From positions 1-49,370 of IMG/VR virus record IMGVR_UViG_3300025941_000035: 49,370 nucleotides of DNA; one strand, written 5' to 3'. This DNA is from a virus. A program made the position numbers and the translations under genes. The notes under the pieces are model-generated. The model saw only the letters and a list, made by a program, of their open reading frames with translations. It ran no database searches and was not told the DNA's origin. Shown here piece after piece: positions 1,214 through 49,196 of this stretch. Every line of letters begins with the position of its first letter. The first letter of the stretch is position 1.

Positions 1214-2904
1214 CCGTTTCCAGAAACCCCGACCCGCTGGTCGACTTCGCCAAGCTCTCACCGGCCGAGCAGACGGCGGTGGCCGAACGGCTCATCAAGA
1301 TCGAGGAGAGCGGCTGGAAGCCGTTCTGGTGCCCGGACCCGCACTGTGACGGGATGCCCCACGTCGTGCTCGATGACGACGGGGAGGAGATGCTCGTCGG
1401 CCATGACGTAGCTGCTGGCCCCAACGGTGAGCCCGTCTCGGATCTGGTCTATGAGACGCCGGACGGCGAGTGGTTCCTCTCGTCCGAGTACGACAAGGCT
1501 GGCCCCGACGACACCCCTGTGGGGCGTCTGGTGTACGAGCCACAGTGGGCGCACAACCATGCACGCGAGGACCAGCGCCTGCTGCCGTGGAGCGAGCCTT
1601 GGATCTTGTTCATCATGTCTGGGCGTGGCGCGGGCAAGACCCGTACCGGCATCGAGTTCGTCACGCTGTGCGCCCGCAAGGGGTTGGACGGGGCCATCGT
1701 CGGTCGTCGTGGCACGGAGCTTGTCAACACCCACGTCGCCGAGATCATCAAGTTCGCCCACCCCGAGTTCAAGCCTGAGCACTTCGCGTCCAAGGACATC
1801 CTTGTCTGGCCCAACGGCGCGATCACCTACCTGTTCTCCGCCGAGAGGCCCGAGAACATCCGGTCGGTCAACCTGTCCTACTGCTGGTTCGATGAGGCAG
1901 CCTGGATGGACGAGATCGAGTCGGCTTGGGACAACGCCAAGTTCGCCACCCGCGTCAAGTCACCGGGTAACCCGATCCACTTCCTCATCACCTCCACCCC
2001 GACCGGCACCCCGTGGGTTCAAGAGATGGAGGACGACCCGGACGTCACCGTTCGGCGTGTGTCCACCTACGCCAACAAGGCGAACCTGGACCCCGACTAC
2101 ATCGCTGAGCTTCGCAAGAAGTACGAGGGTACCCGCAAGGGTCGCCAGGAGCTTCACGGCGAGGTGCTGCGCGACGTCGAGGGGGCGATGTGGAACGACG
2201 AGATGTTCAAGCAGCGCCGCCTGGACCCGGTTGGGTTCCACTTCCTGTTGTTCGATCAGGATGACCGGGTTATCGCCGTCGACCCTGCGGGCTCCAAGGG
2301 CAAGCGCAGCGACGCCACCGGCATCATCGGCGTGGGCGTGCAGCACAACGACGAGGAGGGCGAGCCGCTGCCGGTCTCCCGGTATTCGGTGCTGCTGGAC
2401 GCCACCCTCAAGGGCACGCCGACCGAGTGGGCCTGCCAGACGTTCAAGGCCGCGAGACTCATCCACGCCACCCGGATCATCGCCGAGAAGAACTACGGCG
2501 GCGAGATGGTGCTCCAGACTCTCAAGGACTACGCGAAACTCCACCCAGATGAGTGCAAGAACGCGGACGGCGAGCAGTTCAAGATCGAACTGGTCCACGC
2601 CGCCGAGTCCAAGGAGACCCGAGCCGAGCCCACGGTCGGCAAGTACGAGCAGGGGCTGGTCACCCACATCACCTCGGAACTGGTTATCGGGAGCACAGTG
2701 GTCGGGGACCTGTCGCAACTGGAGAAGGAACAAGTCACGTGGGTGCCGAAGTCCCGTGGTGGTCGACTCCCCTCCCCGAACCGTGTCGACGCGCTGGTCT
2801 GGGCGATCCGCGCCTGCGAGAGCGCGCTCAAGTACAAGGCCCAGACCGCCAACAGTCGTGACGTGCTGCGCATGCTGCGCCGTCGTGGCCGGGGTGCTGC
2901 CTAG
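1210..2904 (+). CDS. terL: terminase large subunit
   Basis: 564 residues, the packaging motor ATPase plus nuclease that cuts concatemers and pumps DNA through the portal. Walker A is SGRGAGKT (about 137-144), Walker B CWFDEAAW (about 223-230), and the C-terminal RNase H-like nuclease begins at VDPAGS (D about 358) with a later acidic residue in RVDALVWA (about 525). The first 100 residues carry a cysteine/histidine pair (WCPDPHCDG), an N-terminal extension before the ATPase. The start ATG overlaps the previous TGA. Codons 3-6 (VSRN) are one of the dispersed palindromes. Length is normal for the family. Confidence 0.95.
   Translation: MTVSRNPDPLVDFAKLSPAEQTAVAERLIKIEESGWKPFWCPDPHCDGMPHVVLDDDGEEMLVGHDVAAGPNGEPVSDLVYETPDGEWFLSSEYDKAGPDDTPVGRLVYEPQWAHNHAREDQRLLPWSEPWILFIMSGRGAGKTRTGIEFVTLCARKGLDGAIVGRRGTELVNTHVAEIIKFAHPEFKPEHFASKDILVWPNGAITYLFSAERPENIRSVNLSYCWFDEAAWMDEIESAWDNAKFATRVKSPGNPIHFLITSTPTGTPWVQEMEDDPDVTVRRVSTYANKANLDPDYIAELRKKYEGTRKGRQELHGEVLRDVEGAMWNDEMFKQRRLDPVGFHFLLFDQDDRVIAVDPAGSKGKRSDATGIIGVGVQHNDEEGEPLPVSRYSVLLDATLKGTPTEWACQTFKAARLIHATRIIAEKNYGGEMVLQTLKDYAKLHPDECKNADGEQFKIELVHAAESKETRAEPTVGKYEQGLVTHITSELVIGSTVVGDLSQLEKEQVTWVPKSRGGRLPSPNRVDALVWAIRACESALKYKAQTANSRDVLRMLRRRGRGAA
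1216..1227. repeat. dispersed palindrome site 1
   Basis: GTTTCCAGAAAC, codons 3-6 of terL (VSRN). Confidence 0.9.
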
Positions 2905-2917
2905 CTCACAGGTCAGC

Positions 2918-2946
2918 GGTTTCTGGAAACCGTGTTGTGATACGGT
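2918..2946 (+). promoter_or_regulatory. putative promoter overlapped by palindrome site 2
   Basis: TACGGT (2941-2946, a TANNNT-type -10 preceded by TG-A) lies 17 bases after GGTTTC (2918-2923), the left half of the palindrome, which would take the -35 position. A protein on the palindrome would block RNA polymerase. It would serve the glycosyltransferase and downstream genes. Confidence 0.35.
2919..2930. repeat. dispersed palindrome site 2
   Basis: GTTTCTGGAAAC with flanking CG...CG arms, between terL and the glycosyltransferase; part of a promoter-like region. Confidence 0.92.
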
Positions 2947-2954
2947 ACGACGCT

Positions 2955-3818
2955 ATGAGCGGAGTAGCGGTAGCGATCAGCACCACCGGCCACGGTCACC
3001 GCATGTGGCTGCTGCGGAACTGCGTCGAGGCGTGGAAGGCCGCGCTGGAGCCCACCGACCACTTGTTCGTCACGGTCGACGGCGATCAGGGCGCTGTGGA
3101 TCGAGTGGCGCACGAGGTCAGGCGACTGACCCGGTTCGTCTACCGGGTCGGGCAGCCGGAGTACGTCACCTACGGCCCGACCGTGATCCCTGACCATCTC
3201 GGCGTGGCCGCGAACAAGAACACCGGCCTGGAACTGATGATGGAGACCGAAGCCCCACGGCTGTGGCTCTCCGACGACGACTCCTGGCCGCTGTCCCCGG
3301 CCAGCTTGGTGGCTCACTACAACCTCGGTATCGCCCACAGCATGGTCTGCTGGGGCAGGCACCGTCGCGCGTTCCCGGTCGCGGCCGACGAGGGGCCGGG
3401 TTACGCCGTGTGGGAGTGGCCCCGGGGCTCGGTCCTGTACGTGGACCGTGGTGTGGTGCTGGCGGTCGGCGGGATGGTCGAGGAGTTCGGGGTCGGGGGC
3501 CACGAGCACGTCGAGTGGAGCAACCGCATCCATAACGCCCGTCTGACCCCGGCAGCCCACGTGACTCCGCTGTCCTACATGGGCGACCGCTCGATGGGCG
3601 CTCGCGCCCTGTGGCACTGCGAGGACATGGCCCGGGTCAACGAGACCACCTCCTCGCTCATCAGTCGTCGCCGCCATCTGACCACCGTGGTGCGCACCCC
3701 CGAGGAGACGGCCAAGCAGGACGCCTTGATGGAGTCCATGAAGGACAGCGCGGCCTACGTTCCCTACGACGCGGAGGCCAATGGAAGGTCGTCCGCTACC
3801 ATGTCCTCCACCGTGTAG
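2955..3818 (+). CDS. GT-A fold glycosyltransferase (GT2-like)
   Basis: 287 residues from ATG 2955; an in-frame GTG at 2937 would add six residues. The N-terminal strand VAVAISTTG, the motif ANKNTGLELM and the metal-binding SDDDSWP (D about 107-109) fit a GT2-type nucleotide-sugar transferase. It lies between terL and a membrane protein, within the virion gene block, where such enzymes in other actinophages have been linked to glycosylation of capsid or tail proteins. Acceptor and sugar are unknown. A dispersed palindrome and a promoter-like sequence lie just upstream. Confidence 0.65.
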   Translation: MSGVAVAISTTGHGHRMWLLRNCVEAWKAALEPTDHLFVTVDGDQGAVDRVAHEVRRLTRFVYRVGQPEYVTYGPTVIPDHLGVAANKNTGLELMMETEAPRLWLSDDDSWPLSPASLVAHYNLGIAHSMVCWGRHRRAFPVAADEGPGYAVWEWPRGSVLYVDRGVVLAVGGMVEEFGVGGHEHVEWSNRIHNARLTPAAHVTPLSYMGDRSMGARALWHCEDMARVNETTSSLISRRRHLTTVVRTPEETAKQDALMESMKDSAAYVPYDAEANGRSSATMSSTV

Positions 3819-3857
3819 GTGCCGAAGCGCCCTACACTCTCTGCGCCGAGGAGCCAG

Positions 3858-4211: not shown

Positions 4212-6229
4212 TGGTCGCCACTCCGTCCAAGACCCAGGCCCCGATGCAGGTCGAGTTGGTTTCTGGAAACCCCGCCGCGCTCACGGCCGCCTCGTTCGCC
4301 GCCCCGGCCCAGGTGTTCAAGTTCGGCGCCAAGCGCAACCCGAGCGAGGACCGCAACGAGATTTGCAAGGCTTGGCAGCGGGAGGCGTACCGCCACGTCA
4401 ACATCTGTGGTGAGGCGCGCTACGCCGCCTCCCTGTTCGCGTCCATGGCCGGACGTGCCGAGCTTGGCATCGGAGAGCCGCAGTCCCTGCGCAACAAGGC
4501 GAAGTGGATCAGCACCGGCCCCGAGGTGGACGTGCTGGCAGAACTCGTGCCCACAGTGCGCGACCGGACCAAGATGATCCGTGACTACATGCTGCACCGG
4601 ACCATCGCCGGTGAGTGCTACCTGATCGCCAGGGACCGGACCCCGAGCGACCCCGGGTACATCCCGCCGCCCGACCCGGACATGACATGGGATGAGTGGA
4701 TCAAGTCCCGCGTCAAGTCGGGCATCGACGCACTGACCTACGACCCCGAAAGCGAGAACGCGAAGGAGGACGCGAACCCCAACGAGGAGTTGTGGGAGAT
4801 CGTCGCGGTCACCGAGATCCGTCGTCTCGGCAGCGGCGACTGGGAGGTCCGCCACGACAACGGCAACTGGCTCAAGCTCGCCAAGGACAACCCCGTCATC
4901 CGGATGTGGAGCCCGGACCCGGAGAACCGCCGCGAGGCGTGGAGCCCGTTCCGGTCGATGCTGCCCACCCTTCGTGAGATCGAGTGGCTGACCAAGCACA
5001 TCTTCACCCAGGTCAAGTCGCGGCTCATGAGCGCGGGCGTGTGGTTCCTGCCGGAGAACATGGTGTTCAAGCGGCCCCCGGACGATGCCGTCGAAGGCGG
5101 TGCCGAGGCCATCGCCAAGATGAACGAGGCCGAGCAGTTCATGGTCTCGCTCGCCTCCTCCTCGATGGAGGAGTTGTCCGACGATGAGGTGGCGTTCCCC
5201 TCGGTGGTCATGGTCGACGCGGCCGCTCTGGCTCAGATCGACCAGAAGAAGCTGATCCAGTTCTGGTCGGAGATCGATGACAAGGCGATGTTGATGCGCA
5301 GCGACGCCATCCGTCGCTTCGCTCTCGGCTTCGACATGCCCCCCGAGCAGGCGTTCGGGGCGGCTGCCGTCAGCAGGGCCGAGGGAGGCGGCTCGGGCGG
5401 GGCCACGAACCATTGGGGTGAGTGGGCCAAGGAGGAGCAGACCATCCAGAACCACATCGAGCCCGCGCTCGATGACTTCGTGGGTGTCCTGACGTATGCC
5501 GTCCTTCGTGCTGCCATCCCCGAGACCAAGTACATCGTCGCCTACGACACCTCGGGGTTGCGCGCGAAGCAGGACCGGAGCAAGGAGGCCCTGGAACTCA
5601 ACGCTCGGGGTATCCTGAACAACGCCCGGACCCTGCGCGAGATCGGGTTCGACCCCGAGAACGACATGATGGACGACGAGGAGTTCAAGCGGTGGGTCCT
5701 GGTCAAGATGATCGGCGGCTCACCGACCCCGGAGCAGGTCGCGGAGGCCGTCAAGCTGCTCACCGGCCTGTTCATGCCCGCCGATACGTCCTCGGGCGAG
5801 CCTGTCAAGGGGCTTCCGGGGCGGCATCGCCCCGGTAGCACCGACGACATCGAGGTGCAAGGCCCCCCGGAGGACGACCATGAGCACCAGCCCGCCCCCT
5901 ACAGCGCCGATGTGAGCCCCAAGGTGGCCGCGTGCGAGGTTCTGGTACTCAGAGCCCTTGAAAGGGCCGGGAACAAGCTGGTCAACGACCGCAAGCGGGG
6001 CAAGGACCGGGACCGGAGCATCCCGCTGCACCTCGTTCACGTCGGCCACGAGCGCACCAAGACCTACATGGCGTCCGAGTTCGACTTCGGGCTCGCCTCG
6101 ACCGCCCTGATGGACCTTCCGGGGGTCACCTTCTCCGCCGATCTCGTCAAGATGGGCATGTTCTGCGCCGATCTGTACAACACCGGGACCGAGTACACCC
6201 GCGAGGGTCTCGTCAAGGCGCTTGGGTAG
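4211..6229 (+). CDS. portal protein
   Basis: 672 residues, the dodecameric portal at the capsid vertex through which DNA passes. Identified by length, position after TerL and before the protease/capsid, and portal-type features: a long helical segment (WLTKHIFTQVKSRLMSAG), a region ending FALGFDMPPEQAFG, and an acidic/helical C-terminal part. The ATG overlaps the preceding TGA (TGATG); the same frame is open far upstream but lacks a better start. Codons 17-20 (VSGN) are a dispersed palindrome. The last 130 residues look like an extra domain. Confidence 0.85.
   Translation: MVATPSKTQAPMQVELVSGNPAALTAASFAAPAQVFKFGAKRNPSEDRNEICKAWQREAYRHVNICGEARYAASLFASMAGRAELGIGEPQSLRNKAKWISTGPEVDVLAELVPTVRDRTKMIRDYMLHRTIAGECYLIARDRTPSDPGYIPPPDPDMTWDEWIKSRVKSGIDALTYDPESENAKEDANPNEELWEIVAVTEIRRLGSGDWEVRHDNGNWLKLAKDNPVIRMWSPDPENRREAWSPFRSMLPTLREIEWLTKHIFTQVKSRLMSAGVWFLPENMVFKRPPDDAVEGGAEAIAKMNEAEQFMVSLASSSMEELSDDEVAFPSVVMVDAAALAQIDQKKLIQFWSEIDDKAMLMRSDAIRRFALGFDMPPEQAFGAAAVSRAEGGGSGGATNHWGEWAKEEQTIQNHIEPALDDFVGVLTYAVLRAAIPETKYIVAYDTSGLRAKQDRSKEALELNARGILNNARTLREIGFDPENDMMDDEEFKRWVLVKMIGGSPTPEQVAEAVKLLTGLFMPADTSSGEPVKGLPGRHRPGSTDDIEVQGPPEDDHEHQPAPYSADVSPKVAACEVLVLRALERAGNKLVNDRKRGKDRDRSIPLHLVHVGHERTKTYMASEFDFGLASTALMDLPGVTFSADLVKMGMFCADLYNTGTEYTREGLVKALG
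4259..4270. repeat. dispersed palindrome site 3
   Basis: GTTTCTGGAAAC, near the start of the portal gene (VSGN). Confidence 0.9.
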
Positions 6230-6232: not shown

Positions 6233-8413
6233 ATGAGCATGGGGTTTCTGGAAACCGTGATGGATGAGTACAACCTCATGCGCTCCCGGTCGTTCGCCGG
6301 GGGGTACGAGGGCGTCACACACGCCGGAATCGCCCTTGTTGCCGCTGATACCGGGCGTGTGTTCCTCACCAAGCGGGCAGACGACCCCACAGACGCACCG
6401 GACGTGCGCGAGACGTGGGAGTTCCCCGGTGGGGGGCTCAAAGACGGGGAGGAGCCCTATCCGGGGGCCGTTCGGGAGACCATCGAGGAGACGGGCTGGG
6501 GTTTGCCCGACGATTCCATGGTCGTGAGCGGCTGGCGGTCCCCGGATGGGGTGTATCAGGGCTTCGTGGTCAGTACAGCGGCCGAATTCCCGGTCGACGG
6601 GTGGTCACCTACCACGGAAGTGTCCGATATCGGGTGGTACGACTACAATGCCGTCCAGGCGCTGGCCGAGACCGGGGCGCTACGGCCCGAGATGGCCGAT
6701 ATGGACTGGTCACTGGTGTTTCCAGAAACAGAGGACGACATGACGGACCCGGCCGACGAGGCAGCGCAGTACGCGGCAATCGTTCCCCATCCGATCCCGG
6801 TTCATGGGGTCGTTGCGCCTGAGGAGACCCAGACCGGGGACCGTCGAGGGTTCAGCAAGGGCTCGATGACACGTCGGCCGCTGCGCCTGCCGCTGCGCGA
6901 CACAGCTACCGACATGGGCGGGCACGACGGAGCCATGGTGGCGGGTTCGGTCGACCGGCTGATGCGCGCCAACAACGTCGTGCACTTCGAGGGCGCGCTC
7001 ATGCCCGGTCCGGCCGAGGCACTGATCGAGAAGATGGAGTTCTTCGGCGGGCAGTATGGCGTGTCCGTCGATGGCGACAAGGGCTCGCTCGACATGCAGC
7101 GCACCGAGGCCGAGAACACGCTGTGGTTCGACTCCATCAGGGCGTCCGGCCTGACCGCTGTCGACATCCCTGCCTTCCACGAGGCGTACGTCGCCTTCGG
7201 ATGCCACCCGGAGATGCCCGACGACACGCTGGCCGCGTCCGCCTACGAGGCCGGAGACCTCATCGGAGGGCGAGTCACCTTCGACCGTGGCCCCGGTTGG
7301 GTCACCGACCCCAAGGCGACCAAGAACATCCACGACTACTGGACTAAGAAGGGCGAGGAGGGCTACGCCAAGATCGCGTGGGGCACGCCCGGAGACTTCC
7401 GTCGTGCCAAGGCGCTGATCGGGGCGAAGATCGCACAGCACTCGCCCGACAAGATGCGGTACCTCAACCAGATCATCGCGCAGTGGCACTTCGACGCACT
7501 GGGCTACTGGCCCGGTGACCTCGGCAAGCCGGGGAACGCACCCGACACCCCGGAGAACCGGCGTCGCGCGGCGGAGCACGCGGCCACTGAGCGCACGGCC
7601 CACCTCGCCGTGGTGAAGGACGCCGTGGCCGAGCGCGAGGACATCGTTCCGGTGACGGACTCCGCAGACGCGGCGACCGAGTGGGAGGCGGTGCTCGTCT
7701 CCTCGGCTGCTAGCCGGGTGCGCCCGCCGCTGGCCTACTTCCACGAGCCGGACACCGAGGACGGAGCGACTCACATTGACGAGCCTGACGCCGATGGCTT
7801 CCGTCACACCTACGGCTACGCCGCCGAGTGGGGTGTCTGCCACATCGGGATGAACGGCAAGTGCGTCGAGCCGCCCCGCACGTACAGCAACGACTACCCG
7901 GGCTTCCACAAGGGGCGCACCAAGACGACTGAGGGCTACGTGCACACGGGCGTACTCACCTACGGGGTGGGCCACCGTGACGCCCAGACGATCCTGAGCG
8001 AGTCCGCCGACGAGGCGTTCTTCGACAACCTCAAGAACGCATGGGCGGCGGTACGTGTCGGGGAGAACGAGCGGGGTATCTGGTTCTCCGGCGTCGTCCT
8101 GCCGACCGTTCCCGAGGACGACATCATCGCCATCGAGGCGTCGGGTCAGGTCAGTGGTGAGTGGCTGCATGGCGAGATGCGCGCGTGCCTCACAGTCAAC
8201 GTCCGGGGCTTCGAGGTCCAGCGCCCGAGCGCGGAGTACGACGAGTACGGCAACGTCGTAGCTCTCGCCGCGTCCGCGTTCAACGCCATCTCGCCCAATG
8301 GCGGCAAGTGTCCTCCGACCCCTGCCGAGCGCATGGAGGCGCTGCGCCTGATCGACGCCGAGGAGCGGTTCAACGCACTCAAGGCGCAGTTCCTGGCGGA
8401 GCGGAGCGCCTGA
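6233..8413 (+). CDS. NUDIX hydrolase-capsid maturation protease fusion
   Basis: 726 residues. Residues about 25-165 form a NUDIX hydrolase domain with a near-complete Nudix box (GGLKDGEEPYPGAVRETIEE, then TG, about 65-88). The rest resembles actinophage capsid maturation proteases: a barrel-like start (VVHFEGALMPG, about 250) and a conserved C-terminal block (YVHTGVLTYGVGH, then ERGIWFSGVVLP, then SGEWLHGEM and VNVRGFEV, about 570-665), with the His near 583 a candidate catalytic residue. It follows the portal by 3 bases. Two dispersed palindromes lie in the NUDIX part (codons 5-8 FLET; about 163-166 FPET). The substrate of the NUDIX part is unknown. Confidence 0.75.
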   Translation: MSMGFLETVMDEYNLMRSRSFAGGYEGVTHAGIALVAADTGRVFLTKRADDPTDAPDVRETWEFPGGGLKDGEEPYPGAVRETIEETGWGLPDDSMVVSGWRSPDGVYQGFVVSTAAEFPVDGWSPTTEVSDIGWYDYNAVQALAETGALRPEMADMDWSLVFPETEDDMTDPADEAAQYAAIVPHPIPVHGVVAPEETQTGDRRGFSKGSMTRRPLRLPLRDTATDMGGHDGAMVAGSVDRLMRANNVVHFEGALMPGPAEALIEKMEFFGGQYGVSVDGDKGSLDMQRTEAENTLWFDSIRASGLTAVDIPAFHEAYVAFGCHPEMPDDTLAASAYEAGDLIGGRVTFDRGPGWVTDPKATKNIHDYWTKKGEEGYAKIAWGTPGDFRRAKALIGAKIAQHSPDKMRYLNQIIAQWHFDALGYWPGDLGKPGNAPDTPENRRRAAEHAATERTAHLAVVKDAVAEREDIVPVTDSADAATEWEAVLVSSAASRVRPPLAYFHEPDTEDGATHIDEPDADGFRHTYGYAAEWGVCHIGMNGKCVEPPRTYSNDYPGFHKGRTKTTEGYVHTGVLTYGVGHRDAQTILSESADEAFFDNLKNAWAAVRVGENERGIWFSGVVLPTVPEDDIIAIEASGQVSGEWLHGEMRACLTVNVRGFEVQRPSAEYDEYGNVVALAASAFNAISPNGGKCPPTPAERMEALRLIDAEERFNALKAQFLAERSA
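6244..6255. repeat. dispersed palindrome site 4
   Basis: GTTTCTGGAAAC, codons 4-8 of the NUDIX-protease gene (GFLET). Confidence 0.9.
6718..6729. repeat. dispersed palindrome site 5
   Basis: GTTTCCAGAAAC, just after the NUDIX domain (FPET). Only 474 bp from site 4, the shortest spacing found. Confidence 0.9.
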
Positions 8414-8604: not shown

Positions 8605-8631
8605 GTTTCCAGAAACCACTTGTGCTACATT
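8603..8631 (+). promoter_or_regulatory. putative capsid promoter with palindrome site 6
   Basis: TACATT (8626-8631) with an extended TG-C just upstream, about 16-17 bases after the left arm of the palindrome. The 105-base leader to the capsid ATG holds nothing else recognisable except AGAAGGGA before the start. Confidence 0.4.
8605..8616. repeat. dispersed palindrome site 6
   Basis: GTTTCCAGAAAC directly after the TGA at 8604, at the head of the capsid leader. Confidence 0.92.
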
Positions 8632-10573: not shown

Positions 10574-10622
10574 GGGGCAGGGTTTCTGGAAACGCCTCTA
10601 ACGTGACCAGCAACCCTGCCCC
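10574..10622 (+). terminator. inverted repeat enclosing palindrome site 7
   Basis: GGGGCAGGG (10574-10582) and CCCTGCCCC (10614-10622) flank a 31-base loop that holds most of the palindrome. It could be a terminator after the capsid gene whose folding or protein binding is linked. Confidence 0.4.
10582..10593. repeat. dispersed palindrome site 7
   Basis: GTTTCTGGAAAC after the capsid gene, at the start of the loop of a GGGGCAGGG/CCCTGCCCC inverted repeat. Confidence 0.9.
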
Positions 10623-12665: not shown

Positions 12666-12677
12666 GTTTCCAGAAAC
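12666..12677. repeat. dispersed palindrome site 8
   Basis: GTTTCCAGAAAC between the tail-tube candidate and the tailspike, 14 bases after a strong hairpin. Confidence 0.92.
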
Positions 12678-15083: not shown

Positions 15084-15095
15084 GTTTCTGGAAAC
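15084..15095. repeat. dispersed palindrome site 9
   Basis: GTTTCTGGAAAC between tailspike and endolysin, 15 bases after a 16-bp-stem hairpin. Confidence 0.92.
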
Positions 15096-16702: not shown

Positions 16703-16714
16703 GTTTCCAGAAAC
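16703..16714. repeat. dispersed palindrome site 10
   Basis: GTTTCCAGAAAC between the holin and the adaptor gene; a TAGACT lies just upstream. Confidence 0.92.
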
Positions 16715-24490: not shown

Positions 24491-24501
24491 TTTCCAGAAA
24501 C
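24490..24501. repeat. dispersed palindrome site 15
   Basis: GTTTCCAGAAAC; its first G is the last base of the TAG stop of the minor tail gene. Confidence 0.92.
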
Positions 24502-34061: not shown

Positions 34062-34312
34062 TCGTCCACCGCCAGGATGAAGTCCACCCCGTCAGGACCG
34101 AGCGCCCACTCCAGGGCCTCCATCTCCAACTCGGCATGGACACCACCACCGCTGGAGTTGGGGTCGGCCATGCCACCCAACTCGGTGACCTTGGTTTCCA
34201 GAAACCGGAGGCGGCGCAGCAGGTACTGGGCACGCCTCCGCTCACGGCGAGAGAACTCGTCCCGCGTGCGGGGGTTCTCCTGGTATCGGCTCGTGGCCGC
34301 ATCCACCTTCAT
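34058..34312 (-). CDS. hypothetical basic helical protein
   Basis: 84 residues, Arg-rich first half (RRERRRAQYLLRRLR) followed by an acidic end. A palindrome encodes FLET at about 37-40. Coupled by overlapping stops and starts to both neighbours. Function unknown. Confidence 0.6.
   Translation of the reverse strand: MKVDAATSRYQENPRTRDEFSRRERRRAQYLLRRLRFLETKVTELGGMADPNSSGGGVHAELEMEALEWALGPDGVDFILAVDE
34194..34205. repeat. dispersed palindrome site 21
   Basis: GTTTCCAGAAAC on the plus strand; read FLET in the 84-residue protein. Confidence 0.9.
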
Positions 34313-37076: not shown

Positions 37077-38642
37077 CTACAGCCGCAACGAGTTGCGGAT
37101 GTGGTCGAGTAGTGCCTTCTCCAGGTTGCCCCGGTCCTTGTGCCTGTCGAGCATGACTTGATCTATCGAACCCGGCACGAACACGTTCCAGTGCGTTACC
37201 GGCTTTGTCTGTCCCTTGCGACGGAACCGTCCCCGAGCCTGCACCCAGTCGTTGCGCCTCTCCGAGTACGAGCCGTAGACCGCGTGCTGCGCAGTGACCA
37301 GTTCGTTGACCGAGACCGACATGGTGCGTGCTTGAGCCACGAGGATCATACGTCCCGGGTTTCTGGAAACGTCACCGAAACGCTGACGGATGTCAAGCCG
37401 GTCCTTGCCCGACGTCGCCCCGGTGATGACCTCGACGCACGTGCTCGGCTCCATCTGTGCCAACCGCTGCGCCAGCAGGGCGCACTCGGACTTGAAGTAG
37501 CCGAACAGTACGACGCGCTGTTCCCCGCCCAACTGGACCGTGGCGATCTCGCACATGGCCTTGCGCTTGGACGAGCCGATGACGTGGGTCACCTCGGTGT
37601 CGGTGTCGCGGATGAACCCGGCCGTGATCTGGCGGAGCTTCATGATCTTCGCCAGCGCGTTCGGTGCCTCGATCAACTCGCCCGAGGCGAGCAGCGCGGC
37701 CAGGTCGTTGTGCATCTCGGTGTACGCCTTGCGCTCACGCGGGCTCAGCGTCACGTGGATGTCCACGTCCTTCTCGGGCGGCAGGTCCATCGCGTCATCG
37801 AGCCGCATGACGTGGCTGCGCTCAGCGATCCGGGCTCGGAAGTCACCGTGCTCCAGGTAGCCGCGCACGTCCTTGCCTCGGTAGCCACCCTTGGTGGTGT
37901 ACCTGTCGCGGAACACACCGAACGACCAGGGCTTGATCGACTTGCGCCGCATGAGCGACATGCGCAGCGGCTGCTTGGTCCACGGCTTGCCGTAGTCGTC
38001 GCTGAACGTCCACGGTGCCAGGAACCGCCACTGCCCGTAGCAGTCGAGGATGCTGTGCGGGTTGACCGTGCCGGTGAGGATCATGCGGTGCGGTGCTAGC
38101 TGACCCATCTGGTACATGGCCTTGGAGATGTTGGCCTCCGCGCCCTTGATGATGTGGCTCTCGTCCACCACGATCAGGTGCGGCGCGTAGGCACGGACAG
38201 CGCGCAGCATCTTGATCGTCTTGGCCCGCTCGTCGCAGAACGAGGAGATCGCACCCGCCGACACGGACAGGATGGTCACTCGGGCATTGTGGTTCGCTCC
38301 ACGATGGTTGACGCCGATGGGTGCGTGCGGCACCATGGCCCAGTCGTGCGCCGCACGGATCTTGCCCATGATCGAGACGGTGCTGCCCTGGAGGAATCTC
38401 GCCTTGACCACCGAGTCCATGAAGTCCGGAGGCTGGAGCACCCACGTGTCGGCAGCGGTCAGCGGTGCTACAACTAGCACCCGCACTTCGCCGTAGCGAG
38501 GGGCGAGTTTCTGGTCCACCCACGCCAGCGTCGCCCCGGTCTTGCCCACGCCCGGGTCCCACAGCAGGGCACCGATGCCGTCGACGGTTTCCAGAAACTT
38601 GACACCCTCGACCTGGTGCTTCATCAGTGCGTACACAGTCAT
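37077..38642 (-). CDS. SNF2-family DEAD/DEAH helicase
   Basis: 521 residues. N-terminal KHQVEGVKFLE, Walker A DPGVGKTGAT (29-38), DEAH-box variant DESH (160-163), LTGTVNPHS (motif III-like) and a C-terminal half with VSVNELVTAQHAVYG and QARGRFRRKGQ (motifs V and VI). This is the two-RecA-domain layout of phage SNF2-like translocases, which often accompany family A polymerases and VRR-NUC nucleases. Two palindromes lie inside, FLET at 17-20 and VSRN at about 425-428. Confidence 0.9.
   Translation of the reverse strand: MTVYALMKHQVEGVKFLETVDGIGALLWDPGVGKTGATLAWVDQKLAPRYGEVRVLVVAPLTAADTWVLQPPDFMDSVVKARFLQGSTVSIMGKIRAAHDWAMVPHAPIGVNHRGANHNARVTILSVSAGAISSFCDERAKTIKMLRAVRAYAPHLIVVDESHIIKGAEANISKAMYQMGQLAPHRMILTGTVNPHSILDCYGQWRFLAPWTFSDDYGKPWTKQPLRMSLMRRKSIKPWSFGVFRDRYTTKGGYRGKDVRGYLEHGDFRARIAERSHVMRLDDAMDLPPEKDVDIHVTLSPRERKAYTEMHNDLAALLASGELIEAPNALAKIMKLRQITAGFIRDTDTEVTHVIGSSKRKAMCEIATVQLGGEQRVVLFGYFKSECALLAQRLAQMEPSTCVEVITGATSGKDRLDIRQRFGDVSRNPGRMILVAQARTMSVSVNELVTAQHAVYGSYSERRNDWVQARGRFRRKGQTKPVTHWNVFVPGSIDQVMLDRHKDRGNLEKALLDHIRNSLRL
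37359..37370. repeat. dispersed palindrome site 24
   Basis: GTTTCTGGAAAC on the plus strand; read VSRN in the SNF2 helicase C-terminal half. Confidence 0.9.
38587..38598. repeat. dispersed palindrome site 25
   Basis: GTTTCCAGAAAC on the plus strand; read FLET near the N-terminus of the SNF2 helicase. Confidence 0.9.
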
Positions 38643-39378: not shown

Positions 39379-41522
39379 TTCTTGTACCTCTCCATGATTG
39401 CGCCCTCGCCCTTGACGACGAGAGACGGAGCCCATGACGGCGGGTTCGCCATCATGCCTAGCGTGTCTGCCAGCACCTGATCCGCATGGCGCTTGTGCAC
39501 CTCCAACACTACCTCATCGTGCACGTGGAGAACGAGGCGGGCAGGCCAGCCGGAGGCTGTCTCCGCTTCGATCTTCATGATGAGGTCGAACAGCACGTCG
39601 CGGGCCACGGCCTGCGTCACGTTCTCGGTCAGCTTCCCGCCGTGCGTCTCAGTCCGGACGTGGCCGACGCCGCTCGACTTGCCCATGAACGTGCGCCGGT
39701 CGATGCGGTCGGGGTTGGTGTCGCTGGGCCACGAGCGAGCGAAGCGGTACCAGATGGACCGGCCACTGGGCAGGACCATCCGGTTGTGCCGTCCGTCACG
39801 GATCATCGCCACGACGTGGCCCTGTCCGAACCGTGCACCCCGGCCAGCACTGGCTACGTCGAACGCCTTGGCGCACAGTTTCCAGAAACGCACCGTCTCG
39901 GGGCTGGCCTCGCGGAACAGGTCTCGCATCCGGATGAGTTCGGGGTAGTTGTGCGAGTCCCGTTCCCACTCGTGGAACTTGCCCGGTCGGCCAGCCGCCA
40001 CCCACAGTGCGTGCAGGTCGGGGTAGTTGCCGACGTCGATGCCCGCCTCCTCGGCACCCATGGTCACCATCGCACCAGCACCGCCCGCGTACCCGAGCGC
40101 GAGGTTGGCGACCTTGGCCTTGGCCCGGGTCATGCACCATTGGCAGGTGCCGCACTTGTCGCACCGCTTGAGCGACTCGATCATCAGCGCCTTGTCGACG
40201 CCGAACATGGTGGCAGCGGTCGCCTCGTATATCTTGCCCTGCCCAGCGAACTCGACCTGCACCCACTTCTCGCCGGTCAGCCACCCGAGCACCCGTGCCT
40301 CGATGGCGTTGTAGTCCACCGTCACGAACAGGTGGTCACGGGCCGGGACCAGGCTGGCACGGACCGCACCCTTGGCGATCTCGGGTGCGTTGCGTCCAGC
40401 GTTTCCAGAAACCAGCAGACGTAGCTCAGCCTTGGTCGCCTCCTTGCGGGGGAGGTTCTGCGGCTGGATGCCACGCCCAGCCTCGCGGCCAGTGTGCGCT
40501 CCGTAGTAGCGGAGGCTGCCACGGATACGCCCGTCCTTGCAGCGGGTGTCGAGTGCGGCCTTGTGCTTGCTCACCGAGGACAGGCTCGCCTTACCCTTGA
40601 GGATCAGCGCCTCGCGCACCTCGTCGGGGATCAGGTCGTCGCGCAACGCCTCCTCGCGGTGGTCCTTGTCGAGTGACTGCATCGGGTAGCCCTGCGACTC
40701 CAACCAGGTGTGGAACTGCGGGCCGGAGTTTGGGTTGTCGAGCAGGGTCATCTGCTTGAGCACGCCCATCAGCCGGTCCTTCTCGATCTCGACCTGCCGC
40801 ATGGCCTGCTCGGACAGCGCCCGGAAGTGACGGATGCCCCGGTCGTTGATGCGCTGGTCGGCCTCGTACTCGGCCTGCAAGGCGGGCAGCATAGGCGGGA
40901 AGTTGTTGGCGACCACGGCCTCGGTCAGCACGTCGTTGATGCAGTACCGTTTGAAGTGATCGAAGTCTGCGCTGTGGTCGATGCCACACCAGCACAGGGG
41001 CTTGTACCCCAGCCGCGCTGACTCTTGGCACGTGTCGTGGAACCGACCGCCCTGCTTCTTGTCCGGAACTGAGAACAGCTTGATGAGGCGTCGACCCTCG
41101 GGGTCCTTGCGGATGGTGGCACGCACGGCGCGGGCCACCTCATCGAGGGTGCCGAACACGCCATTGACGTTCGCCAGCACGGCGCTGCACCACCAGTTCT
41201 CGGGATCGAGGTAGGTACCGTCCGGCATACCGAGCCACTTGCTGGAGACGATGCGCTCGAAGTTCGCGTTGAAGGCGTGTTTCTGGAAACGAGGATCGGT
41301 GAGGATGCGGGTGAACTGAGCCACCTCGACGGGATCATTCTGATCCAAGACCCGGGGCCTGCCGTACTTGGTGGCACCACCGGGGTACTGACGGATGGGG
41401 GTGTACGCCGCGACCAGCAGTCCGAACTCGGGGTCCTCGCAGTAGCGGTACGCACCGTACTTGATGTCGGTGGCGGAGCGGGTCTCGTAGTCGAGCCGGA
41501 TGCCGATGGTCTTGGCGGTCAT
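39375..41522 (-). CDS. family A DNA polymerase
   Basis: 715 residues from ATG 41522. The N-terminal 3'-5' exonuclease begins with LDYETRS (D11, E13). The polymerase core has motif A VTVDYNAIEARV (D about 402), motif B in the fingers (AKAKVANLALGYAGG, about 466-480) and motif C LHVHDEVVLEV (D about 668). A four-cysteine cluster (RCDKCGTCQWC, about 452-462) sits just before motif B. Three palindromes lie inside (FQK about 79, VSGN about 371, FWK about 545). This is the replicative polymerase of the phage. Confidence 0.93.
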   Translation of the reverse strand: MTAKTIGIRLDYETRSATDIKYGAYRYCEDPEFGLLVAAYTPIRQYPGGATKYGRPRVLDQNDPVEVAQFTRILTDPRFQKHAFNANFERIVSSKWLGMPDGTYLDPENWWCSAVLANVNGVFGTLDEVARAVRATIRKDPEGRRLIKLFSVPDKKQGGRFHDTCQESARLGYKPLCWCGIDHSADFDHFKRYCINDVLTEAVVANNFPPMLPALQAEYEADQRINDRGIRHFRALSEQAMRQVEIEKDRLMGVLKQMTLLDNPNSGPQFHTWLESQGYPMQSLDKDHREEALRDDLIPDEVREALILKGKASLSSVSKHKAALDTRCKDGRIRGSLRYYGAHTGREAGRGIQPQNLPRKEATKAELRLLVSGNAGRNAPEIAKGAVRASLVPARDHLFVTVDYNAIEARVLGWLTGEKWVQVEFAGQGKIYEATAATMFGVDKALMIESLKRCDKCGTCQWCMTRAKAKVANLALGYAGGAGAMVTMGAEEAGIDVGNYPDLHALWVAAGRPGKFHEWERDSHNYPELIRMRDLFREASPETVRFWKLCAKAFDVASAGRGARFGQGHVVAMIRDGRHNRMVLPSGRSIWYRFARSWPSDTNPDRIDRRTFMGKSSGVGHVRTETHGGKLTENVTQAVARDVLFDLIMKIEAETASGWPARLVLHVHDEVVLEVHKRHADQVLADTLGMMANPPSWAPSLVVKGEGAIMERYKK
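39878..39889. repeat. dispersed palindrome site 26
   Basis: GTTTCCAGAAAC on the plus strand; read RFWK in the polymerase palm/fingers part. Confidence 0.9.
40401..40412. repeat. dispersed palindrome site 27
   Basis: GTTTCCAGAAAC on the plus strand; read VSGN ahead of polymerase motif A. Confidence 0.9.
41279..41290. repeat. dispersed palindrome site 28
   Basis: GTTTCTGGAAAC on the plus strand; read RFQK in the polymerase exonuclease part. Confidence 0.9.
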
Positions 41523-41768: not shown

Positions 41769-41780
41769 GTTTCTGGAAAC
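41769..41780. repeat. dispersed palindrome site 29
   Basis: GTTTCTGGAAAC in the gap downstream of the SSB gene, 2 bases from a CCCCGCTCTCT hairpin. Confidence 0.92.
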
Positions 41781-42694: not shown

Positions 42695-42706
42695 GTTTCC
42701 GGAAAC
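42695..42706. repeat. dispersed palindrome site 30
   Basis: GTTTCCGGAAAC, fully palindromic, in the leader of the SSB gene. Confidence 0.92.
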
Positions 42707-43487: not shown

Positions 43488-43739
43488 CTACAACCGCCGC
43501 TGGTTCAACCAGTGGAAGTAGTCTCGGAACTGCACCGACGTCCCGTCCAGATCGCTCCATGTGATGTTGGTCAGGATCAGCGAAGCCACCACTACGTCGC
43601 CGTCGTCGCGCTTCTGGAGTAGCACCAGGCGAGTGCCGATCTTGGCCTCGCACTGCGCCATTCCGAGTTTCTGGAAACGCTGGCACTCGGGGCAGTGGCG
43701 CTTGCGCCAGGTACGCCACCACTTCACGAGGCGCTTCAT
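43488..43739 (-). CDS. small cysteine-containing basic protein
   Basis: 83 residues; the N-terminus is strongly basic (KRLVKWWRTWRKRH) followed by CPEC and a later cysteine. A palindrome encodes RFQKL at about 22-26. ATGA-coupled to the upstream gene. Function unknown. Confidence 0.55.
   Translation of the reverse strand: MKRLVKWWRTWRKRHCPECQRFQKLGMAQCEAKIGTRLVLLQKRDDGDVVVASLILTNITWSDLDGTSVQFRDYFHWLNQRRL
43667..43678. repeat. dispersed palindrome site 31
   Basis: GTTTCTGGAAAC on the plus strand; read RFQK in the 83-residue protein. Confidence 0.9.
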
Positions 43740-44459: not shown

Positions 44460-46391
44460 TCAGTCCTCCTCGATGTCGAACATGTCCTCGGGTGCCTTGC
44501 CCTGCCACTTGCTGCGCCGGTCCCCCTCGGGTGCGATAACCGGACGCTTGTCGGGCTTGACGACCAGCCGCTCGACGCGGGCGAACGCCTCACCCAGCAC
44601 CTTCTCGGCCTGTGTCGGGGAGAGCAGCGACCGTTGCCACAGTTGTGCCGCCTGCTCCTCGGTGAGGATGCCGTGGTCCTTGTTACTCGGGTCCAGTTCC
44701 TCGGCAGCCTCCTCGGTCCAGTGCCGGGGCGGCTGGTAGTTGACCAGTCCGTAGCCGGGGATGGCGTCGCCCCGGTAGGCGCGGCGCTGTAGCTCGGCCT
44801 TGATCTCGTCGTGCAACTTCACCAGCCCACGGATCTGCGTGTAGTAGCGGGCCAGTTCGTCGTTGGTCAGGGTGATGGTTTCTGGAAACTCGTCGCCACC
44901 CATCTCGATCATCACGTCGAACAGTTCCGCCGCTGCCTCCTGGCGGTGGGCCAGCAGAGCAGGGCAGCCACCACGAGCGGGGCACCACTGACAGGTGGAG
45001 TCACCGGGGCTGAACGCCGCTCCGGCCTTGGCCCCGCCGAGCGCCTCGGTCAACTTGACCGAGAGCACGTTCTCCTGCCAGTCGAGCAGGTCATCAACCT
45101 TCTCGCGCCAGACCTTGATGCCACCCAGCCGGGGCTGCACGATCACGTACTCGACCCACTCCAGCCACTCGGGCAGGCCGTCGTACATCTCGACCACCTC
45201 AGCCAGCAGACCCAGCGCGTAGATGCGCACCTGCGGGTTGGCCTCGACGGAGACATCGACACCCTCGCCGTACTTGAGGTCGCCCACAACTAGGACTGGT
45301 GCCTCCGGCACCGGCATGACTCCGAGGTCGAGCGAGCCGGTCAGGTCGTAGGTGTCCTCCTCGCCGTTGGTGACAGACAGGAGAGGGATCGTGGCGGTGA
45401 CCCGTGACTCGATGCGCACGTCGCGCTGCTCGTCCACGTACTGGGCCACGAGTGCCACGTACTCGGAGACGTGGGTCTCCATCTCCTCGTCGTAGTCCTC
45501 GCCGTCCGGTGGGTGCACTGCGAGTTCCATCAGTGCGAGGTCGGCCTCCTCCGGAGTGATCTCCCCGAGCAGGACGCGGGCTTGTACTTCTGCGACCGAG
45601 TGCGCAGTGGTGCCCTGCCGTGCAGCCTGCGAGCCGGTGGCGTACTCGACCTGCTGGTTGGGGGTCAGGGTTTCCAGAAACGCGCGGCTCGCACCCAGGC
45701 TGGCGGTGCACTCCATCCACCGCTCGGCCGCTGACGGGCCGGTACCACGGTGGCCGTCGAAGATGTAGTCACGGGTGCCGGGCAGGCCGATGAACAACGC
45801 CTCGGTGAACTGGGGCTTGGACTTCACCTCGTCCGACATCGCGTCGAACTCGGCGGCGAGGTCGATGACGCCAGCGGACAGCACGATCTGGATGTCGTCG
45901 GGGTACAGGCTGGCGTCTTGGAATGCGTGGCCTGCGGGCTTGGGGTGCGCGGACTCGACCAGACCACAGCCACAGAGTGGCTCAGTGTCGGCGGTCATCT
46001 CCTCCAGGTCCGCGAGCAGTGCGTCGATGTCGTCATCGTCGTCGGTCACCTCGATACCACGGTCGTGCATCATCTCCTCGACCTCGCCTCGGGACAGGGA
46101 CATCTCTCCGATCAGCCGGTCGACGGCATCGGGGTCGTTGATGTCCAGCGGCTCCTCCCGGCTGAACACGTCAGCCCCGTGGCGGTCAGCGATGGACTGC
46201 GCCACCTCCGCCGCACGGCGGGCCTGCGCCACAGCGTCGATCTTCTCGGGCCAGGACAGGGCCTTGGCCTCGGTCTCGTCCCAATCGAACCGGGTGACCA
46301 ACTCAGCGATGAGTTGCTTCTCGCTCATGCCACCGGGTGCGGTCGGGTGGGCGTCGGGGAACGCGGGGTTCTTGGACTTGCGTGTGGTCAC
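44460..46391 (-). CDS. DUF2800/RecB-like PD-(D/E)XK nuclease
   Basis: 643 residues, GTG start. An N-terminal extension of about 210 residues is acidic and contains CGCGLVESAH. The nuclease part begins at SAAERWMECTASLG (about 220-233), continues with ARQGTTAHSVAE and the catalytic block TGSLDLGVM followed by VVGDLKYGEG (D, K pair about 370-380), and ends in CQWCPARGGC (about 465-474), which with the earlier Cys could hold an iron-sulfur cluster as in Cas4/AddB nucleases. Such proteins travel with DUF2815 SSB and PolA in phages. Palindromes encode FLET (about 238) and FPET (about 502). Confidence 0.8.
   Translation of the reverse strand: MTTRKSKNPAFPDAHPTAPGGMSEKQLIAELVTRFDWDETEAKALSWPEKIDAVAQARRAAEVAQSIADRHGADVFSREEPLDINDPDAVDRLIGEMSLSRGEVEEMMHDRGIEVTDDDDDIDALLADLEEMTADTEPLCGCGLVESAHPKPAGHAFQDASLYPDDIQIVLSAGVIDLAAEFDAMSDEVKSKPQFTEALFIGLPGTRDYIFDGHRGTGPSAAERWMECTASLGASRAFLETLTPNQQVEYATGSQAARQGTTAHSVAEVQARVLLGEITPEEADLALMELAVHPPDGEDYDEEMETHVSEYVALVAQYVDEQRDVRIESRVTATIPLLSVTNGEEDTYDLTGSLDLGVMPVPEAPVLVVGDLKYGEGVDVSVEANPQVRIYALGLLAEVVEMYDGLPEWLEWVEYVIVQPRLGGIKVWREKVDDLLDWQENVLSVKLTEALGGAKAGAAFSPGDSTCQWCPARGGCPALLAHRQEAAAELFDVMIEMGGDEFPETITLTNDELARYYTQIRGLVKLHDEIKAELQRRAYRGDAIPGYGLVNYQPPRHWTEEAAEELDPSNKDHGILTEEQAAQLWQRSLLSPTQAEKVLGEAFARVERLVVKPDKRPVIAPEGDRRSKWQGKAPEDMFDIEED
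44878..44889. repeat. dispersed palindrome site 32
   Basis: GTTTCTGGAAAC on the plus strand; read FPET in the DUF2800 protein after its cysteine cluster. Confidence 0.9.
45670..45681. repeat. dispersed palindrome site 33
   Basis: GTTTCCAGAAAC on the plus strand; read FLET in the DUF2800 protein near the first nuclease motif. Confidence 0.9.
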
Positions 46392-46992: not shown

Positions 46993-47004
46993 GTTTCCGG
47001 AAAC
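46993..47004. repeat. dispersed palindrome site 34
   Basis: GTTTCCGGAAAC, fully palindromic, in the leader of the 182-residue protein gene, beside ATAGTGTGACAC. Confidence 0.92.
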
Positions 47005-47779: not shown

Positions 47780-47964
47780 TACAAGTCCTCCTCATCTTCT
47801 AGGTCCAGCACCCATGGTGTGTCCTGTTCCCACAGTGGGCCGGTCTGGCGGTTTCTGGAAACGGTGCTAGCCCTAGCACCGGCCGGTGTTGCTCTGCGTC
47901 TGACCATCCTGTTGAGCAGCTTCACCCACAGCGGAGCGGTGACCAGCAGGAGGAGGATCAGCAC
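47779..47964 (-). CDS. small membrane protein
   Basis: 61 residues, GTG start with GAGGTGATCC upstream. An N-terminal transmembrane helix (MLILLLLVTAPLWVKLL) is followed by a short soluble acidic tail. VSRN at about 35-38 is the palindrome. Confidence 0.55.
   Translation of the reverse strand: MLILLLLVTAPLWVKLLNRMVRRRATPAGARASTVSRNRQTGPLWEQDTPWVLDLEDEEDL
47851..47862. repeat. dispersed palindrome site 35
   Basis: GTTTCTGGAAAC on the plus strand; read VSRN in the 61-residue membrane protein. Confidence 0.9.
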
Positions 47965-47968: not shown

Positions 47969-48508
47969 TCACCTCGCGCTCCACGCCATGAACTCCTCGT
48001 AGTTCATGTCGCCCAGGCTGTCGGCACCACAGGTGGAACAGCGCACACCGTCGTCGGTGCGCTCGGGCTTGTGTGCCAGCGACAGGACCAACTGCATCCA
48101 GTTGGGCAGCCGATACCAGACCGGTACCACCATCCCCCCTCTGACGTAGTAGTCACGGCACACGGCCACACCGAAGTCGTCCTTGACCCTGAGGATCATC
48201 GGGCACACCGACAGGGCGTAGCGGCAGCACTCGATGTGGAGTGGTGCCTCGCTGTACGTACCCAACTGGAAGCGGCCGGGGAAGCAGGCGAACTGGTCCT
48301 TGGCGATCCTCTTCCCGCACAGTTGGCACTTGCGGTTGGCGATCATGTCGATCACCTTGTCGTCATCGATCTGGCCGAACAGCGGCTTGGTGTGGTCGTT
48401 GTTCCACTTGACGTTGGCTGCGACGAACATGCCCTTGTAGTAGATCCGATCCTTCTTGCTCACCCGGTCGGGTAGCTCGGGCCGGTTTCTGGAAACCTCA
48501 GTCGTCAT
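47969..48508 (-). CDS. zinc-binding protein (treble-clef/HNH-like)
   Basis: 179 residues, with GGAGGAC before ATG 48508. Contains KCQLCGKRI (CxxC, about 69-77), FACFPGRF, HIECC (about 101) and a second pair CSTC near the C-terminus. Such a CxxC...HxxC arrangement resembles treble-clef fingers of HNH-type phage proteins, but the HNH catalytic pattern is not complete. VSRN at 5-8 is a palindrome. Possibly an endonuclease relative or regulator. Confidence 0.6.
   Translation of the reverse strand: MTTEVSRNRPELPDRVSKKDRIYYKGMFVAANVKWNNDHTKPLFGQIDDDKVIDMIANRKCQLCGKRIAKDQFACFPGRFQLGTYSEAPLHIECCRYALSVCPMILRVKDDFGVAVCRDYYVRGGMVVPVWYRLPNWMQLVLSLAHKPERTDDGVRCSTCGADSLGDMNYEEFMAWSAR
48485..48496. repeat. 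dispersed palindrome site 36
   Basis: GTTTCTGGAAAC on the plus strand; codons 5-8 (VSRN) of the zinc-binding protein. Confidence 0.9.
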
Positions 48509-48710
48509 CGCTGTCCTCCTCATCCAGCCAGCCGTCCTCCTCATCCAGCCAGCCGTCCACCTCGCGCTGGTCCTCTTGGTCCATCTCCTCCAGCACCGCG
48601 TCCACAAAGAACACAGCCAGCACCACCACGAGCAGAAGCAGCGGCACGATGATGGCCCAGCCAGGGACGAACTGTGTTTGAACGAGTGCCGTCACGGTCA
48701 GCGCAGTCAT
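48498..48710 (-). CDS. membrane protein with acidic tandem repeats
   Basis: 70 residues: an N-terminal hydrophobic helix (WAIIVPLLLLVVVLAVFFV, about 18-36) and an acidic tail with two tandem DGWLDEED units ending in DSDDD. The repeat is a 21-bp direct duplication (48513-48554). It overlaps the start of the next gene by 11 bases. Function unknown. Confidence 0.55.
   Translation of the reverse strand: MTALTVTALVQTQFVPGWAIIVPLLLLVVVLAVFFVDAVLEEMDQEDQREVDGWLDEEDGWLDEEDSDDD
48513..48554. repeat. 21-bp tandem duplication
   Basis: Two perfect 21-bp units in the 3' end of the membrane protein gene at 48498-48710. They encode two copies of an acidic DGWLDEE-type unit. Confidence 0.85.
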
Positions 48711-49033
48711 GAGCGCACCCCCGCAGGCAGAGCGGGACACTGGCCCCGGTCGTGGTTGTCGGCGTAGCCACAGCCGGGGCAGACCACGTGCTCGCTCCGG
48801 ACTGGTGCGTCGTAGACCAGCACCATGTTGCGCTCGCGGAGCATCTGCTCCCACGTGTACCGGTACTTGCCCCGGTGCCACAGCCCGTCCGAGAAGTACC
48901 GCTGCCAGGCGTCGCCGTAGATGCCGTTGACCAGCACCACCGAGGCAGGCTCCGGTTCCGGGCACCGACCAGTACGGTAGTAGATGACCCGTCCGTGGGT
49001 GTTGGTGATGTGCACCCCTCTCTGCTCGGTCAT
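48707..49033 (-). CDS. zinc-binding hypothetical protein
   Basis: 108 residues. CPGCGYADNHDRGQCP near the C-terminus gives a CxxC...H...C zinc site. The rest is alpha/beta with aromatic residues. ATGA-coupled at both ends. No family recognised. Confidence 0.6.
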   Translation of the reverse strand: MTEQRGVHITNTHGRVIYYRTGRCPEPEPASVVLVNGIYGDAWQRYFSDGLWHRGKYRYTWEQMLRERNMVLVYDAPVRSEHVVCPGCGYADNHDRGQCPALPAGVRS

Positions 49034-49170
49034 CGCTGCACCTTCACGTCCGTGATGGTGTAGCCCTGGCCCATGTCACCGTTTCCAAACGTGCGCTCGG
49101 CGTCGGCGAGGAAGTTCTCCACTCCCTCGGTCCTGGTCACGTCGAGCGTGATCACCACTTGTACCTTCAT
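49030..49170 (-). CDS. small hypothetical protein
   Basis: 46 residues, GGAGGACATG start. VVITLDVTRTEGV and TITDVKVQ suggest a small alpha/beta fold. It carries GTTTGGAAAC (plus strand GTTTCCAAAC, 49081-49090), a two-base-shorter relative of the palindrome, encoding TFGN. Confidence 0.55.
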   Translation of the reverse strand: MKVQVVITLDVTRTEGVENFLADAERTFGNGDMGQGYTITDVKVQR

Positions 49171-49184
49171 GTCCTGTCCTCCTG

Positions 49185-49196
49185 GTTTCTAGAAAC
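49185..49196. repeat. dispersed palindrome site 37
   Basis: GTTTCTAGAAAC, the only TA-centred copy; the TAG is the stop of the truncated XRE-like gene. Confidence 0.85.

Follow-up and report, generated by a model that had tools for sequence, protein, structure and literature searches.

Dispersed operator systems have been described in temperate phages and plasmids, where they silence the resident genome. The stoperators of temperate cluster A actinophages are 13-bp, asymmetric, monomer-bound sites in short intergenic regions and oriented with transcription (PMC9283540); the consensus differs from one subcluster to another, and positions are variable as well (PMC5559632). KorB of RK2 can act up to ~1.5 kb from its site (PMC11790492), and MrpR, a recombinase-fold repressor, uses about ten 15-bp SPBRE elements in promoter regions of the temperate phage SPbeta (PMC10516654). 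Omega dimers, of the ribbon-helix-helix (RHH) class, bind 7-bp units, inverted arrangements included (PMC9499535). Here, we describe a 12-bp palindrome, GTTTCYRGAAAC (GTTTC-YR-GAAAC), that is repeated throughout IMG/VR virus record IMGVR_UViG_3300025941_000035 (49,370 bases, 65% G+C; the window), which comes from an uncultured virus of actinobacteria, and throughout the related phages. These sites are symmetric, invariant and evenly spaced, and they occur in phages without detectable lysogeny or partition genes.

Like the cluster A stoperators of L5 and TipsytheTRex, the palindrome provides tens of short sites over a 50–60 kb actinophage genome, some at promoters and the rest in transcribed regions. 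The original prediction, made from the window sequence, had called it symmetric and unoriented, unlike the oriented stoperators, and the contrast is correct (PMC9283540): the site is a perfect palindrome with mixed CA and TG centers. It also differs from stoperators in being wholly intragenic at 150 of 263 sites (57%) and invariant across the clade, and no counterpart of the integrase or parABS genes of temperate cluster A phages was found in the six large phages studied here. The KorB operators (OB) of RK2, a replicon of ~60 kb, are likewise dispersed symmetric sites read by a global regulator, and the reach of KorB approximates the spacing seen here, but KorB is a ParB-family CTPase with a longer, different site, and no ParB_N domain was found in these phages. 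As with SPBRE and MrpR in Bacillus phage SPbeta, we propose one phage protein acting on many copies of one element across its own genome. The extended site consists of two inverted 7-bp units, as for Omega of pSM19035 (an RHH protein is only a candidate binder here); Omega arrays, however, are 7–10 contiguous heptads at a few promoters, whereas the pairs described here are isolated and genome-wide. Finally, the GTTTC and GAAAC arms resemble the inner arms of parS and recall Noc sites, but the parS core GTTTCACGTGAAAC is not matched, because all 321 sites have a 2-bp YR center and not ACGT; the sites also recur at roughly kilobase intervals genome-wide, and no ParB was found. By analogy, the system appears to resemble cluster A stoperators and KorB operators while belonging to neither.

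Distribution and conservation of the palindrome

The window holds 37 perfect copies between positions 1216 and 49196, with plus-strand centers of TG (19), CA (14), CG (3) and TA (1). Our recount agreed with the original prediction in every copy, coordinate and center count, and its hand estimate of fewer than 0.1 copies by chance was sound: the Markov expectation for GTTTC-NN-GAAAC is 0.013 copies. It had also proposed shuffling the sequence and comparing relatives as checks. No copy of the 12-mer appeared in 100 dinucleotide shuffles of the window, and the sites are kept across related phage records, as detailed below. One-mismatch copies were at chance level (1 seen, 0.55 expected), and tolerating two mismatches added 7 window matches compared with 10 expected from shuffles. 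Flanking sequence contributed just a weak outer G/C (52% per side, 275 sites tallied); specificity is limited to 12 bp plus this weak outer G/C. The TA center at 49185..49196 was the only one among the 275 sites. There were no tandem or clustered sites within 25 bp. A literature search for the exact 12-mers, subscription papers not covered, returned only unrelated papers.

Relatives were taken from IMG/VR. The six large phages are the window (W), A (3300037119_001810, or L011; 60,930 bases), B (3300031228_000005; 62,091 bases), C (3300017685_000007; 41,160 bases), F (3300050821_000708; 64,945 bases) and H (3300032004_000004; 63,954 bases); the fragments are D (L005), E (L094), L128, L129, L131, L133 and L134. 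A further member of the lineage is represented by two contigs, L123 and C96, binned with an Aeromicrobium metagenome-assembled genome (MAG). Perfect sites numbered 37 in W, 53 in A, 50 in B, 29 in C, 3 in D, 6 in E, 37 in F and 48 in H, and 9 in L123, 3 in C96, 11 in L128, 10 in L129, 5 in L131, 5 in L133 and 15 in L134. The total is 321 over 14 related records (a count of records, as some fragments may come from one phage), and every site has a YR center. W, A, B, F and H each carry more than 20 dispersed sites, a feature of the cluster A stoperator system. Where a terminase was present, identity of at least 56% went with one site per 1.1–1.8 kb, and the 21 records at or below 40% had no sites. 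None were found in ~77 other PolA-bearing contigs or in the first 50 kb each of phages Kithara and OneinaGillian. The lineage boundary for site carriage is sharp, and the site offers a simple marker for recognizing the lineage in metagenomes. Cultured phages are distant: terminase identity is below 40%, capsid and PolA are also only remotely related, and when window positions 1–24000 were compared with the DNA of cultured phages, no near match was found.

The sites are listed below. Structural genes (terminase, portal, capsid, tail) lie in an arm on the plus strand and replication genes in an arm on the minus strand. Genes were called with a home-made codon-usage caller, so gene starts are approximate. 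"Same column" means the same alignment column in the orthologous gene of the named relative; the palindromic sites are given without strand.

1216..1227, center CA: codons 3–6 of the terminase gene; relatives have no counterpart at the column
2919..2930, center TG: intergenic; promoter-like element at 2936 begins 5 nt downstream
4259..4270, center TG: portal gene start; same column in B, C
6244..6255, center TG: NUDIX/capsid-morphogenesis-type gene start; same column in B, E, H
6718..6729, center CA: intragenic; 4 alignment columns off a site common to B, C, E, F, H
8605..8616, center CA: right after a stop codon, ahead of the capsid gene; same gap in C at 35187
10582..10593, center TG: intergenic, past the capsid gene; same gap in A, B, C
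12666..12677, center CA: intergenic; follows the orthologous gene in A, B, C
15084..15095, center TG: intergenic, ahead of the amidase (lysin) gene; same gap in A at 51314
16703..16714, center CA: intergenic; same gap in A at 49560
18032..18043, center CA: right after a stop codon; next ATG 1 nt on
19041..19052, center TG: intergenic, adjoins promoter-like element at 19053; same arrangement in A, B, H
20241..20252, center TG: tape-measure gene; in A, same column pairwise, 10 columns off in the multiple alignment
23088..23099, center TG: tape-measure gene end; same column in A, B, F, H
24490..24501, center CA: between tail genes, overlapping a stop codon; same gap in A, B, H
25984..25995, center TG: intragenic, minor tail gene; not shared
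28191..28202, center TG: intragenic; same column in H
29716..29727, center TG: intragenic, leftward gene; same column in A
31446..31457, center TG: intragenic; same column in B
32333..32344, center CA: intragenic; gene without a reciprocal-best-hit ortholog
34194..34205, center CA: intragenic; not shared
35366..35377, center CG: AAA/RecA-like gene start; same column in all six large phages
36284..36295, center CA: Prim-Pol gene start; not shared
37359..37370, center TG: SNF2-type helicase gene; same column in all six; VSGN or VSRN depending on the phage
38587..38598, center CA: SNF2-type helicase gene start; same column in F
39878..39889, center CA: DNA polymerase A gene; same column in all six
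40401..40412, center CA: DNA polymerase A gene; not shared
41279..41290, center TG: DNA polymerase A gene; same column in A, B, H
41769..41780, center TG: intergenic, downstream of the single-stranded DNA (ssDNA)-binding-protein gene; same gap in A (26712) and H (28018)
42695..42706, center CG: intergenic, upstream of the ssDNA-binding-protein gene; same gap in A, B, H
43667..43678, center TG: intragenic; not shared
44878..44889, center TG: DUF2800/PD-(D/E)XK gene; same column in A, B
45670..45681, center CA: DUF2800/PD-(D/E)XK gene; same column in all six
46993..47004, center CG: intergenic
47851..47862, center TG: intragenic, a second palindrome directly after it; in B and H, same gene, nearby columns
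48485..48496, center TG: leftward gene start
49185..49196, center TA: stop codon of the A34-type gene; at or just past the ortholog's stop in A, B, C, F, H
2936..2947, plus strand: promoter-like element TGTGATACGGTA, just downstream of site 2919..2930
19053..19064, plus strand: promoter-like element CGTGATACCGTA, adjoins site 19041..19052
36298..36828, minus strand: clade-specific helix-turn-helix (HTH) protein, a weaker candidate binder; weak MerR_1 and phrog_686 matches

In the window and its close relatives the palindrome recurs at intervals of ~1.3 kb along the genome. Spacing in the window, a feature that the original prediction had not noted, was far more even than random (coefficient of variation 0.42 versus 0.96), with 0 of 20,000 simulations equally even, and all six large genomes behaved alike (0.33–0.62 versus ~0.96). 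Sites prefer non-coding DNA and gene ends: in the window, 12 of 37 site centers fell in non-coding DNA compared with 1.4 expected, a preference that may reflect cost rather than function. In the window, the leftward early/replication arm, with 20 sites in 20.7 kb, is more densely occupied than the structural arm, with 17 in 28.7 kb.

Intragenic sites were conserved in position. Ortholog groups contain 131 such sites, and 90 of them coincide exactly with a site of another phage in both alignment column and codon phase, giving 147 column-and-phase pairs against a random mean of 0.54 (maximum 4 in 1000 trials). Five positions hold a site in every member of the ortholog group, four of them in all six large phages. 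The site encodes 80/80 VS[GR]N, 49/51 F[LP]ET and 21/27 F[QW]K peptides in these proteomes; where a phage has no site at a position, its residues there are mostly different too. In the helicase gene, VSGN and VSRN replace each other between phages while the DNA site stays. That VS[GR]N is always encoded by the site shows that selection on the sites acts at the DNA level, and they are maintained inside essential genes despite the cost in amino acid choice. Near-misses with one mismatch numbered 6, with ~4.2 expected by chance, against 263 perfect sites.

Promoter-linked sites and candidate proteins

A subset of sites is linked to promoter-like elements. Over all members, a site lies 0–17 nt upstream of the TGTGNTACNGTA element in 9 of 21 instances and just downstream in none; the element was found by eye, post hoc, and its instances are partly orthologous. 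W, A, B and H have an identical arrangement of site and element before the gene at window position 19116. The gene of an RHH protein is also preceded by a conserved TGTGKTACSGTA-like element, and a site starts 45–57 nt ahead of the RHH ATG, upstream of this element, in C, F, L128 and L134. An operator overlapping the −35 region would have such a layout, although it may instead serve activation.

Perfect symmetry and the mixture of CA and TG centers imply that the reader of the site would itself be symmetric. The original prediction had pointed to a dimeric DNA-binding protein acting over the whole genome as a repressor, partition system or DNA organizer; this proposal is partly supported. The symmetric, genome-wide site set under DNA-level selection is itself strongly supported, and a dimer would be its most economical reader. 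Three clade proteins are candidate binders: the RHH protein, the HTH protein and the A29 family. Homologs of all three were absent from cultured phages.

The RHH protein matches PF01402 at the cut-off and the phrog_876 repressor family. Its gene lies near the terminase genes in A (L011:7833-8087), B, C, F, H, L128, L129 and L134 and is present in all complete members. The protein, encoded just upstream of the terminase genes, carries the motif M[ASG]WPTT..P[RK]..F[VI]T[LV]R[LF], in which the putative DNA-contacting strand is conserved as F[VI][TS][LV]R[LF] (LISLRL in C). RHH_1 is the sole transcription-factor-type Pfam domain among 73 scanned proteins of the complete-looking genome A. The HTH protein occurs in all six large phages, but its recognition helix varies. 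The A29 family is found in A (L011:13289-14242), B, C, F and H and is predicted with confidence to have a helical N-domain, followed by a disordered basic tail rich in lysine, proline and alanine. This tail resembles histone H1 or HupB, and C has an additional paralog that lacks it. Fold searches with A29-type and HTH models against the PDB gave nothing significant. The window is judged, because of its synteny with A, to be ~10 kb short of a full genome, and the missing part includes the region where relatives carry the RHH and A29 genes.

Competing explanations

We tentatively favor an operator and roadblock network, in which a phage-encoded homodimeric DNA-binding protein, with the RHH protein as leading candidate, would recognize GTTTC-YR-GAAAC and control the whole genome. 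At a few promoters, in several members including that of the protein's own probable gene, a site at the −35 position would act as an operator; at the other sites, one each ~1.1–1.8 kb within or between genes, bound protein would form a direction-independent roadblock or silencing anchor. Two dimers of the RHH protein would occupy the two inverted 7-bp half-sites (GGTTTCY/RGAAACC). We infer protein binding, the RHH identity and the action on transcription from sequence features, and the promoter-linked sites favor a role in transcription. Several observations weigh against this network. Most sites are away from promoters, and the 9/21 count overstates independence, given a post hoc element with many orthologous instances. 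The window does not reach the RHH gene, and in 4 of 8 RHH genes the nearest site is 163–377 nt upstream. OneinaGillian carries RHH genes near its terminase, yet has no sites in the 50 kb examined. One-mismatch sites are nearly absent, a stringency beyond that usual among operators (in cluster A stoperators, some positions are invariant and others variable; PMC5559632), and operators alone need neither even spacing nor mid-gene sites such as those in the DNA polymerase and tape-measure genes. Genome coverage accounts better for the even spacing and for the sites deep inside long genes, which makes an architectural role a close rival. As an architectural array, which we consider rather unlikely, the sites would nucleate or bridge a nucleoprotein complex that compacts, protects or readies the replicating genome for packaging, with the A29 family or the RHH protein as organizer and any effects on transcription secondary. 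The even spacing in six large genomes and the many sites inside long genes fit such coverage. A clade-specific A29 protein with a helical N-domain and disordered basic tail also counts in its favor, but the A29 model resembles no solved structure and nothing links A29 to the site; the promoter-proximal subset would be unpredicted, and the higher density in the early/replication arm also weighs against it. The operator-roadblock and architectural readings are compatible with each other. Both the repressor and the organizer of the original prediction remain candidates. A site-specific chromatin-like system, in which a phage protein at 40–50 evenly spaced, invariant sites spans the entire genome and organizes, insulates or protects it in lytic growth, is doubtful; if true, it would be a use of dispersed sites undescribed for phages without lysogeny or partition genes. 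Why a lytic genome would need a protein at each kilobase is testable with a small candidate protein and a short oligonucleotide.

It is improbable that the palindrome is the target of an enzyme or of a replication or recombination factor, be it a palindromic Chi-like hotspot, a lagging-strand priming site or a modification site. The all-or-none stringency (263 perfect sites, 6 one-mismatch sites) and a spacing of Okazaki-fragment order would suit such a target, and the lineage carries Prim-Pol, PolA, SNF2-type and PD-(D/E)XK proteins. Known Chi and primase sites, however, are short and oriented, and the promoter-linked sites would be unexplained. A Pfam scan of the 73 proteins of A found no methyltransferase, which weighs against a restriction or methylation site. 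The hairpin potential of the site is also weak (−1.9 kcal/mol), with invariant arms that never covary; an RNA hairpin or terminator was rejected on the same evidence, and terminator-like matches in 1–20 kb were no more frequent than by chance. A host protein's binding site, recruited or titrated by the phage, is quite improbable. Invariance over strongly diverged phages would be expected for a conserved host factor, and the phage-borne HTH candidate varies; titration, on the other hand, would not need even spacing, and host reading is disfavored because 394 Actinomycetes genomes hold 0–3 copies each and 12 of 13 copies in the Aeromicrobium MAG sit on its phage contigs. A host-chromosome motif (Chi, nucleoid or partition) was rejected, as those 394 genomes were not enriched. 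It is very improbable that the sites serve a temperate phage for stoperator-type prophage immunity or for partition in the manner of a plasmid. The 37–53 sites per large genome are dispersed like cluster A stoperators and KorB operators (PMC9283540, PMC11790492), but no tyrosine (PF00589) or serine (PF00239) integrase, ParB_N (PF02195) or ParA-type ATPase (PF13614) was found in the six large phages, although divergent or short versions could escape. Four of these genomes look complete, as F has an 82-base end overlap and gene order in A, B and H is continuous across the contig ends. All contigs seen were phage-like and unintegrated, and the site lacks the divergence between phages that is typical of immunity sites. 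The partition version of the original prediction is thus not supported, the central ACGT of parS being absent as well, and its repressor is weakened as a prophage immunity factor. The lineage apparently consists of virulent actinophages.

Other palindromes and gene content

A second palindrome, GGTGCTA-N4-TAGCACC (core TGCTANNNNTAGCA), has 17 copies in A and 13 in B; the window has 3 (at 38466, 43213 and 47865), C has one, and F and H have none. In A (L011 9.9–17.5 kb) and B, it is found chiefly in the early region. It folds into a strong hairpin (−9.3 kcal/mol), and one copy each in W, A and B starts exactly 14 nt downstream of the first base of a GTTTC site. Other phage-specific palindromes are TGCGAC-N-GTCGCA, with seven copies in F, and GTTCAGTGCACTGAAC, with six in Kithara (PQ868964).

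PADLOC matches on A reflect only the similarity of the SNF2-type helicase. An AAA_5 (MoxR-type) ATPase (L011:14763-15740) is present in all complete members, as is a conserved protein of ~700 amino acids without a Pfam or PHROG match, encoded three genes further on (L011:16312-18462). In the window, positions 28690-34061 on the minus strand hold sugar-related genes (Stealth CR2-like, TylF/Methyltransf_24), and A has no orthologs of several genes there; the capsid-morphogenesis-type gene at 6239-8413 has an N-terminal NUDIX domain where Kithara annotates an RNA ligase. The host of the lineage is a guess from one MAG, with Aeromicrobium/Nocardioidaceae first in line: L123 and L124, phage contigs of the lineage, are binned in the Aeromicrobium MAG, which provides a possible lead.

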